Made by a program: the position numbers and the translations under genes
NCBI GenBank assembly: GCA_021286765.1
Contig: JAJTBS010000006.1
Coordinates: 62,001-126,000 of the forward strand
Length of the DNA: 64,000 bases
Reading direction: 5' to 3'
DNA from: Holophagaceae bacterium
GTDB taxonomy: Bacteria; Acidobacteriota; Holophagae; Holophagales; Holophagaceae
Shown here: one piece after another, positions 59,016-63,753 of the stretch
How the letters are laid out: every line of letters starts with the position of its first letter
Position numbering within the stretch: the first letter of the stretch is position 1
The notes under the pieces: generated by a model
Seen by the model: the letters and a program-made list of their open reading frames with translations, nothing else
The model's database searches: none
What the model was told of the DNA's origin: nothing

Positions 59016-59234
59016 TTACTTCTTGGGACCGTGTTGAAGGGTGCTTCGAAAGGCCAGGAACAAAGCGACGGTCGTGAGGGCCAACGAGACGCCGAAGGCG
59101 CCAGGCAGGACACTGCGCTGGCCATCGAGGACCGCACCCAGCACCGTTTCAAACAGGTAGAGCTGGATGACCAGCAGCACGAGGATCACACCCAGGGCTG
59201 CTGGGGAAATGCGGACGCTGGGAGTGGGATTCAT
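59016..59234 (-). CDS. Small membrane protein of the molybdoenzyme operon
   Basis: A 72-residue protein with two hydrophobic helices (about 14-31 and 44-60) separated by a short loop. The ATG at 59234 overlaps the stop of the Rieske gene (ATGA), so it is coupled to that operon. I cannot name a family beyond a small, uncharacterised membrane protein. It may anchor the Rieske subunit or the complex. It is 82 bp before the chemoreceptor gene on the same strand. Confidence 0.7.
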   Translation of the reverse strand: MNPTPSVRISPAALGVILVLLVIQLYLFETVLGAVLDGQRSVLPGAFGVSLALTTVALFLAFRSTLQHGPKK

Positions 59235-59791
59235 GCCTGCATCTCCGTCTGTTCGCGGGGACAATCCGCCACGCGGTCAAGGTTTTCGAGCGTAGGTTTG
59301 GGAAGCTCACCGACGGCCCAAAGACTTCCATCGGCTCGCTCCTCGATGGCGATGGCTGAGAGAGGTCGGCTGGGCGGCCCCTGGACTGGGAAGCCCCGGT
59401 CCGTTTCGAAGAAGCCCAGGTGGCAGGGGCATTCCAGGCGTCCACCGGAAAAGCGGACGGCACACCCCAGATGCGTGCAGGTCTGGCGGTAGGCCTTCAA
59501 CTCACCCTTGGAAGTCCGCAGCAGGATGCAGGCGTCGTGAGCATCCCTGAACTTGAACAGTTTGCTCTCACCGCTCTTCAGATCAGAGGCCATGCCCAAG
59601 GCTACAGGATGGTCGGAAGGTCCTGACCCTGGATCGGAGGCGCCCTCAAGGGGCTTCTTCCTCAGCCACAGGTACCCAATACCCCCCGTAAAGCCGGCGC
59701 TGACGAGAGCGAGGAAACGGGCGAATTCTCGACGGGAGAAATGTCCCTCCTCGGCCAGTTCGAGGGGAAAGGCGCGACGCCACCAGGCCAT
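59231..59791 (-). CDS. Rieske [2Fe-2S] protein with twin-arginine signal
   Basis: A 186-residue Rieske iron-sulfur protein. The N terminus has the twin-arginine motif SRREFARF (Arg20-Arg21) and one membrane helix (~27-45), so the soluble domain is on the periplasmic side. Cluster ligands are Cys105, His107, Cys121 and His124 (CTHLGC, CPCHLG), with Cys110 and Cys123 forming the usual disulfide. The short N-terminal part resembles bc-complex Rieske proteins more than dioxygenases. It is coupled to the ferredoxin and small membrane genes by 1- and 4-bp overlaps. Confidence 0.9.
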   Translation of the reverse strand: MAWWRRAFPLELAEEGHFSRREFARFLALVSAGFTGGIGYLWLRKKPLEGASDPGSGPSDHPVALGMASDLKSGESKLFKFRDAHDACILLRTSKGELKAYRQTCTHLGCAVRFSGGRLECPCHLGFFETDRGFPVQGPPSRPLSAIAIEERADGSLWAVGELPKPTLENLDRVADCPREQTEMQA

Positions 59792-60372
59792 CAGAAGCCT
59801 CCATCGATGAGCAGTGCGGCGTCCAGATGCAGTGGCGTTTCCGGATCAGGCACCATAAGGGCATTCTTCGTCTTCACGTGCACGGCTCCGATGAGGAAGT
59901 CGCGTAAGGGTTTGTTCTTGCGCAGATTCGCCACTTCATCTTTGCGCACAAAGAGCAGGGCCTGGCTGGGACAGACCGTGGCGCACATGGGCTTGTGGCC
60001 CACGGAGGTACGGTCATAGCAGAGGTCACACTTGAGCATCTGTTCGAGGCCCGAGAACACGATGGGGATGCCGAAGGGGCAGCTCAGCTCGCAGTTCTGG
60101 CAGCCAATGCAGCGGGGTTTCTGGGCGGAGTGGACCACGCCATCCTCGCTGCGTTTGATGGCATCCGAGGGGCAGACCTGGGCGCAGATAGGATCTTCGC
60201 AGTGCATGCAGACGGTGGGCACGGTCTGGGTGCTGTTGAAGCGGTCCATCTCGTCGAGGTGGATCATGGACCGGCCCCGGTGGGTGCCGCACTCGGCGCA
60301 GGCACCCACGCAGGAGCGACAGCCGATGCAGCGCTGGGGATCGATGAAAAAGCCGTAGTCCTGGGGCACCAT
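59791..60372 (-). CDS. 4Fe-4S ferredoxin-type electron-transfer subunit
   Basis: A 193-residue Fe-S protein of the NrfC/DmsB type, the electron-carrying partner of a molybdenum enzyme. Motifs are CIGCRSCVGAC (~15-25), CMHCEDPICAQVCPS (~55-69), CIGCQNCELSCPFG (~88-101) and CDLCYDR...CATVCPS (~115-135), enough for four clusters. There is no signal sequence, so it is cytoplasmic. Its ATG overlaps the stop of the molybdenum subunit by 1 bp. Confidence 0.9.
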   Translation of the reverse strand: MVPQDYGFFIDPQRCIGCRSCVGACAECGTHRGRSMIHLDEMDRFNSTQTVPTVCMHCEDPICAQVCPSDAIKRSEDGVVHSAQKPRCIGCQNCELSCPFGIPIVFSGLEQMLKCDLCYDRTSVGHKPMCATVCPSQALLFVRKDEVANLRKNKPLRDFLIGAVHVKTKNALMVPDPETPLHLDAALLIDGGF

Positions 60373-62633: not shown

Positions 62634-62640
62634 GAAAACC

Positions 62641-63753
62641 TCAGGACTTCATGCTGGTGGAATCAAGGATGGGCTCGGCATGCACAGGGATCGTGGCAAA
62701 GGGATCGAAGGCCCCCTGCAGACGTTCCCCCTGAGCTTTAGCGACGAGCCGTCGTTTGCAGCGGGGGCAAAGGTCCAGGTGATGAACCCCCCCACCATGT
62801 TGTGCGCCGTCCAGGTCCAGCTCCTTCCAGAGGGCGCCGAGATCGCGGCGCTGGTTGGCCCGGATGAAGGGCGTCCCGCAGCCCTTGCAGGCCAGTCGTC
62901 CCTCGGCTTCGCCCTCGGCCTTGTAGAGGGTGACACCGAGCTGGGCGGGCCGCTGGATGACGTGGAAGAGCTTGCCGAAGGGCAGCCCGAGCAGCATGAG
63001 AATCACCGTCAGTTCGTGCAGGAAGGAAAGGGTGGCGAAGTTGCGGCCCTGTAGCCACTTCTCGGAAGCGGTGAGCATCAGTCCCGTCATGCTCACGGCG
63101 ATGAGCAGGACCAGGGGCAGGAGGTCCAGATCGAAACGCTGTGTGGCGGTGTCGCCTTCATCCTGCTTGCGGCGGATGAGGCTGAGCACACACCCGGCGA
63201 TCACCATGAAGGCCGCCAGATCCAGAACATGGAAGCTGCAGAAGGCCATGAAGCTGTCGAGCGGGAAGGACCCCGCCGGGAAGCCGAACAACCAGGCCTG
63301 GTACCGGGCGGAGTTCAGACCTTCGCTGGTGAAGCGGATCCACCCGAACACCAGCGGAATGGTTACGGCAAAACCCAGCATGCAGCCCCAGGCGATGAGG
63401 GCGTGGGCTCCCCAGCGGCGAAGCGATCGCTTCTCGATGAAGCGCTGCAGGAACATTTGGTCCAGGGCCAAGACGGCCATGCGGGGGAGCGCCTTGAAGG
63501 CCTTGGGGGAGAGCAGTGTTCCGACCGTGTGCTGGAAATACATCCGAGTGGCCGGCCGCTCGATCCAGGTGAAATAGCGGTAGGCCACGCCGAAGCAGGC
63601 AAACAGGGTGGCCAGAAGGTAGCCCAGAAGGGCGGGATCGAGCCAACGTCCCCATCGGCTGCCCAGGGCCACGGCGCCGCAGACCACCAACGTGGCGAGA
63701 GCAGCCCGAATCAGGGGGCGTGGTTCAAGATCAAGGCGGTCCGACAAGGACAT
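62641..63753 (-). CDS. NarI/HdrE-like cytochrome b membrane protein with C-terminal zinc ribbon
   Basis: A 370-residue membrane protein with about six helices (~18-70, 120-140, 165-190, 215-235 and 250-265). Histidines suitable for heme b occur in [28 protein letters not shown] and KLFHVIQRP, resembling cytochrome b subunits of the NarI/HdrE type. The cytoplasmic C-terminal ~100 residues carry CKGCG and CPRCK, a zinc-ribbon pair not expected in such proteins. It starts the operon, ending 8 bp before the molybdenum subunit. The ~60-bp gap upstream holds the operon promoter. Confidence 0.78.

Follow-up and report, generated by a model that had tools for sequence, protein, structure and literature searches.

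The last part of the 64,000-nucleotide stretch of Holophagaceae DNA analyzed here (the window) carries a five-gene operon that probably encodes a membrane-bound, menaquinol-driven, cytoplasm-facing nitrate reductase used for respiration or electron disposal. Judged from sequence and predicted fold, the module is real and widespread and would constitute an apparently undescribed form of membrane-bound nitrate reductase. An earlier reading made from the letters alone (the sequence-only reading) had described it as an uncharacterized Rieske-containing molybdoenzyme complex. That description stands: the module is fixed, its public annotation is only generic, and no published account of it was found in open-licence papers, with an earlier description elsewhere possible. 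The operon comprises the following genes.

62641–63753, minus strand: NarI-like cytochrome b of 370 amino acids with a cytoplasmic C-terminal four-Cys ribbon (fold, conserved His)
60372–62633, minus strand: NasC-related Mo-bisPGD catalytic subunit of 753 amino acids with one [4Fe-4S] cluster and the molybdenum (Mo) ligand Cys167 (profiles, motifs, clade)
59791–60372, minus strand: ferredoxin-like subunit of 193 amino acids with four [4Fe-4S] clusters (Fer4_11, ligand Cys)
59231–59791, minus strand: Tat-type, membrane-anchored periplasmic Rieske [2Fe-2S] protein of 186 amino acids (PF00355, invariant RR)
59016–59234, minus strand: DUF6755 two-helix membrane protein of 72 amino acids (PF20540, 27.7 bits; same position in relatives)

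All five ORFs lie where the sequence-only reading had placed them, running from 63753 down to 59016. A 7-bp gap separates the cytochrome and Mo subunit genes and the next three junctions overlap by 1, 1 and 4 bp, an arrangement that suggests translational coupling.

The Mo subunit has Molybdopterin, Molydop_binding and Fe4S4 domains in profile searches and no export signal in its sequence. The nearest Mo subunits are 92–98% identical and mark the bacterium as a near kin of Geothrix (Holophagaceae, Acidobacteriota). A tree was built from 92 sequences that had been selected for their likeness to the window protein, so intermediate forms could exist. In it, the Mo subunits of the complex form a single clade (SH-aLRT 99) separate from NirB-linked NasC. 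Neighboring the clade are Nas proteins encoded beside nirB, from Paenibacillus, Mycobacterium and Deinococcus aquaticus. The clade keeps constant partners, but no characterized member was found inside it, so the result that would have overturned the sequence-only reading (a place in a characterized clade that always has these partners) did not emerge. Plasmid homologs show an identity gap, with complex members at 63% and others at no more than 45%. The NasC equivalog model NF047855 scores the Mo subunit at 829 bits and other members at 788–853 bits, under its cut-off of 1100; NirB-linked Paenibacillus NasC reaches 1165 bits, and other NirB-linked Nas proteins also fall below the cut-off.

Alignment with E. 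coli NapA, FdhF and NirB-linked Nas places Cys167-Met168, ITGQ and GGREHG in the active site, whereas formate dehydrogenases carry Cys/Sec-His and RGQNN; a Thr occupies the position of the formate dehydrogenase Arg. The predicted active site is of the nitrate reductase type and not of the formate dehydrogenase type. Cys167 is kept throughout the clade, in line with the NasA-like subunit and Cys ligand proposed earlier. Other families were considered and rejected. The Mo subunit scores 62.2 bits for NarG (TIGR01580, cut-off 1084) and 264 bits for NapA (TIGR01706, cut-off 930.55), and lacks a signal peptide. For the formate dehydrogenase alpha subunit (TIGR01591) it reaches 593 bits against a cut-off of 666, with Met and Thr replacing the active-site His and Arg. 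Arsenite oxidase AioAB is likewise rejected: the AioA model gives 172 bits against 359, the AioB model 35.6 against 95.65, and Cys167 is present.

The cytochrome matches Nitrate_red_gam at 19.9 bits, under the cut-off of 22.9, and has weak matches to TcuB, TmcC and QmoC. Its AlphaFold2 model, built as a single chain from 43 rows with plasmid rows excluded, is a helical membrane protein (pLDDT 87.7). Structural comparison with VIA-align matched it to EtfD (Z 11.0) and E. coli NarI (Z 9.9–10.6), with the next unrelated row at 6.3, and a Foldseek search with the model gave no significant match. A bc1-type cytochrome b was rejected on the grounds that the fold fits NarI and EtfD and a mycobacterial bc1 chain reaches only Z 4.8, a score that still allows distant kinship. 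H246 and H264 are 18 residues apart, and this spacing and a PF(G/T)(K/R)LxH motif are common to the window's own NarI. Across homologs, H117 is conserved in 74/74, H246 and H264 in 75/75 each, and H175 in 66/75, and these four residues would bind one heme at each side of the membrane. The cytochromes without H175 are those of L027, L028, L033, L045, L049, L070, L076, L079 and L084, several of which have a TDT channel nearby.

The C-terminal ribbon of the cytochrome (C289, C292, C329 and C332) is structurally similar to the HycF C-terminal region (1.8 Å over 52 residues). The zinc ribbon noted in the sequence-only reading is present here but is not kept throughout the family: 22 of the 75 cytochromes, from Bacteroidota and Verrucomicrobiota, have lost three of the four Cys and kept C289 (L033, L034, L036–L046, L048, L049, L070, L073, L074, L076, L079, L081 and L084). 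Because these members dropped three Cys, the ribbon is probably structural, and a role as obligatory electron carrier is unlikely.

The ferredoxin subunit matches Fer4_11 and DmsB/HydN-like profiles and has no export signal. All 16 cluster-ligand Cys are present in 78/78 homologs, which agrees with the four clusters assigned to it before. In the Rieske protein, RR20-21 and the ligand and disulfide residues C105, H107, C110, C121, C123 and H124 are invariant in 42 rows, bearing out its earlier designation as a Tat-exported Rieske protein; W4 and F8 of its short cytoplasmic N-terminus are invariant as well. Its AlphaFold2 model (pLDDT 85.5) has a head closest in fold to AioB and a Chlorobaculum Rieske protein. 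The 72-residue membrane protein can now be named as DUF6755 (27.7 bits against a PF20540 gathering cut-off of 27), and a Deinococcus homolog at the same operon position is annotated as such. No description of DUF6755 was found in open-licence papers.

The module is found far beyond Holophagaceae. A contig scan of genomes with the Mo subunit yielded 79 loci in at least nine phyla: Acidobacteriota, Bacteroidota, Verrucomicrobiota, Deinococcota, Actinomycetota, Armatimonadota, Omnitrophota, Thermodesulfobacteriota and Myxococcota. The cytochrome, ferredoxin and Rieske genes accompany the Mo gene in all 51 well-flanked loci, defined as having at least 3.5 kb on either side. Gene order is shuffled in two lineages (L030 and L066), yet all genes are still clustered. 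As a cross-check independent of the Mo query, the cytochrome alignment was run against 297 Acidobacteriota genomes and found the cytochrome in 45. Twenty of these loci were retrieved, and 18 have all five genes, one (L115) is cut by a contig end and one (L125) carries a fusion alone. Conservation of the gene set across phyla rules out a local oddity or chance cluster. The L125 fusion (L125:6211-8832) is an 873-amino-acid NarK–cytochrome b protein with no Mo, ferredoxin or Rieske genes nearby, indicating that a transporter–cytochrome pair can stand alone.

Trees of the four large subunits give the same groups (Bacteroidota with Verrucomicrobiota, Terriglobia, Deinococcus, and Actinomycetota) and their pairwise distances correlate (Spearman 0.48–0.69), so the module appears to move as a unit. 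In the Mo tree the Holophagaceae version does not have that of Terriglobia as its sister, a sign that the module has passed from one lineage to another. The Deinococcus copies are located on plasmids, where their public annotation is generic, for instance ‘molybdopterin oxidoreductase family protein’ or ‘DUF6755 family protein’, and the cytochrome is labeled ‘MFS transporter’.

Neighboring genes tie the complex to nitrate. With the MFS proteins of the window and of Apibacter as NarK queries, a NarK-family transporter was found within 9 kb in 28 of the 33 well-flanked non-Geothrix loci. Of the non-Geothrix loci without NarK, most encode a TDT (SLAC1-like) channel; L031 encodes a TM_HPP protein, from a family linked to nitrite transport. 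Fusions also occur: Terriglobia have NarK joined to the cytochrome, and Verrucomicrobiota have it joined to DUF6755. Other genes that repeatedly turn up near the operon are those for the molybdenum cofactor, for Ric, and for regulators of the Rrf2 and Crp/Fnr types. Taken with the active-site residues, this gene neighborhood makes nitrate very probably the substrate.

There is also a good case for a respiratory role. Of 26 non-Geothrix genomes that carry the complex, 22 have no other recognized nitrate reductase of the Nar/Nap type, NarG being found in four and NapA in none. Complex-bearing Apibacter adventoris has no NarG, NapA, NrfA or NirB that we could find. Among 17 complex-bearing Geothrix genomes tested, eight have NarG (compared with 1 of 11 Geothrix without the complex), three have NapA and eight have neither, so that the complex is again the only such enzyme; two of the latter (G008 and G018) are nearly closed.

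The operon would encode an electron transfer chain across the membrane. The NarI-like cytochrome b would oxidize quinol close to its outer face, and electrons would traverse the membrane via the b hemes. They would then run through the four ferredoxin [4Fe-4S] clusters and the one in the Mo subunit to Mo, where nitrate imported by NarK would be reduced in the cytoplasm. Nitrite could be exported or taken up by any nitrite reductase present in the host. The Rieske protein is predicted to be anchored with its head outside, as an extra redox centre at the quinol-oxidizing or donor side. It may receive the first electron from quinol, dock a partner in the periplasm or form part of a bifurcating site. 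The gene set, cofactor ligands, NarI fold, clade, active-site type and neighboring genes are observed; substrate, direction, quinol as donor, number of hemes, assembly of the subunits and the part played by the Rieske protein are deduced from them.

The sequence-only reading held that this topology matches no known Nar, Nap, Nas, Fdh or arsenite oxidase. This is true in part. A cytoplasmic Mo subunit, a four-cluster Fe-S subunit and a NarI-type cytochrome b reproduce the layout of NarGHI, and electrons would likely pass, as they do there, from quinol across the membrane to nitrate. What is new is the NasC-type catalytic subunit with its Cys ligand, scoring only 62 bits to narG, the Rieske protein and DUF6755. 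The five-gene module also has no NarJ-like gene. NasC, NasA and NarB share active-site motifs and a cytoplasmic location with the Mo subunit and form its sister clade, but they are soluble and NirB/NirD-linked, whereas this enzyme comes with a membrane cytochrome, a four-cluster ferredoxin, a Tat Rieske protein and DUF6755. It also falls under the NasC equivalog cut-off and largely lacks the assimilation partner.

Rieske proteins accompany other Mo enzymes. The haloarchaeal Nar faces outward, and its NarC is of the bc type. The Haloferax nar operon resembles the present one in encoding a Rieske protein (NarB) and a cytochrome b (NarC), is predicted to be quinol-dependent and has been suggested to run a Q-cycle (PMC2483277). 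Its catalytic subunit is, however, of the NarG type, in contrast to the present pairing of a NarI-type cytochrome with a NasC-type subunit that lacks an export signal. AioAB is also a Mo-bisPGD enzyme with a Rieske partner, and in fold the Rieske protein here comes closest to AioB, but AioA is periplasmic and has no protein Mo ligand, unlike the cytoplasmic subunit with Cys167. A different parallel is ForCE, a menaquinone-linked formate dehydrogenase whose bis-PGD enzyme is akin to soluble cytoplasmic ones yet tied to menaquinone; it has no heme or membrane subunit, has a DUF1641 partner and oxidizes formate (PMC8808070).

Several points weigh against a respiratory, quinol-driven nitrate reductase. 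A scheme of the NarGHI type has no need for a Rieske protein, and the nearest characterized kind of catalytic subunit, NasC, is assimilatory; the family survey of Wells et al. 2023 describes NasC/NasA as exclusively assimilatory (PMC10100899). H175, the likely outer-heme ligand, is absent in 9 of 75 cytochromes, so two hemes are not certain throughout. The window's own genome already has NarGHJI and NapA, which would make the complex redundant there. NirB is present in 12 of the 26 non-Geothrix complex-bearing genomes. Because several genomes are draft assemblies, a single absence carries little weight, but we regard the overall pattern as firm.

The NasC kinship and the NirB co-occurrence would both suit an assimilatory nitrate reductase that is fed by quinol rather than NADH or ferredoxin and makes nitrite for ammonia synthesis. 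We consider this unlikely, as NirB was not found in the other 14 of the 26 genomes. Likewise, among 47 Geothrix genomes the operon occurs in 23 and a siroheme reductase (NIR_SIR) in 11, and only 3 have both. The window's own genome was found to contain no NIR_SIR protein, NrfA or copper nitrite reductase; an assimilatory role is unlikely there because the siroheme nitrite reductase was not found. Ric, Rrf2, Crp/Fnr and a chemoreceptor with a NIT domain as neighbors fit anaerobic or nitric oxide control instead. Furthermore, Sphingobacterium N143 encodes a separate 1172-amino-acid NasA-like protein (L079:13365-16883) about 3 kb from the complex, so that both kinds lie side by side.

Mo-bisPGD enzymes change substrates readily, and the 593 bits of the Mo subunit against the formate dehydrogenase model could hint at formate, chlorate, selenate or another oxyanion being reduced or oxidized, with nitrate a side activity or none. 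This is very unlikely given active-site positions that resemble nitrate reductase and not formate dehydrogenase, and NarK, TDT or HPP transporters beside nearly every non-Geothrix copy. The Rieske protein raises a different question, that of the donor. AioB of arsenite oxidase hands electrons to cytochrome c. A periplasmic donor such as cytochrome c might feed the Tat-type, AioB-like Rieske protein here, with the cytochrome b carrying electrons inward and quinol not the direct donor, and alternative complex III genes do adjoin the operon in the window and in several Geothrix loci. Electron flow in this direction would, however, oppose the membrane potential with little redox drop from cytochrome c to nitrate, and the NarI-like cytochrome has a quinol-oxidizing fold; we regard such a donor as quite unlikely.

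If menaquinol is indeed the donor, its oxidation at the outer face could conceivably be split, one electron passing to the Rieske protein and the other to the NarI-type cytochrome b. We think this improbable, but it would amount to an electron-bifurcating quinol site without a bc1/b6f-type cytochrome. Nitrate reduction would then conserve more energy than with NarGHI, or the high-potential electron would be recycled to a periplasmic carrier. What purpose a Rieske centre serves next to a NarI-type cytochrome is the bioenergetic question that the complex raises.

Surveys of genomes and metagenomes routinely assign NasC/NasA-type genes to nitrate assimilation. Should this clade prove respiratory, nitrate respiration will have gone unnoticed in Acidobacteriota, Bacteroidota (including bee-gut Apibacter), Verrucomicrobiota, Deinococcota and others. 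Nitrogen-cycle inventories would need a new marker, for which the cytochrome, Rieske and DUF6755 genes would do.

The window as a whole is a nitrate and nitric oxide gene island, ordered as Ric/ScdA, two NarK-like transporters, Rrf2, narGHJI, alternative complex III, the NIT chemoreceptor and the five-gene operon. A quinol-type nitric oxide reductase gene lies about 10 kb beyond the operon. The regulator next to the operon begins beyond the window and ends upstream of the cytochrome gene, at a distance of about 60 bp. The other features of the region are as follows.

37305–41725, minus strand: Ric/ScdA repair protein, two NarK-like MFS transporters and a second Rrf2 regulator
42923–49263, plus strand: canonical narGHJI (narG TIGR01580, 1496 bits; NarI PF02665, 205.6 bits)
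56643–58934, minus strand: chemoreceptor with a NIT nitrate/nitrite-sensing domain, directly downstream of the operon (PF08376, 123 bits; MCPsignal, 119.8 bits)
63813–64000, minus strand: Rrf2-family regulator of 152 amino acids, truncated by the edge of the window (whole gene L086:414-872; PF02082, 96 bits)

Elsewhere in its genome, the bacterium encodes a NapA above the family cut-off with a Tat signal (L001:580-3387), followed by a 178-amino-acid NapB-like gene. It thus has three nitrate reductase types (Nar, Nap and the five-gene complex) and no recognized ammonia-forming nitrite reductase. Within the window, a cytochrome c7-type gene and the alternative complex III genes directly follow narGHJI on the same strand (42923–56502), and because they adjoin, Nar and alternative complex III may be co-regulated. 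No tRNA that could mark an island edge was found within the window. A tyrosine integrase (35308–36738) borders the start of the nitrate and nitric oxide region and is a possible trace of island insertion.
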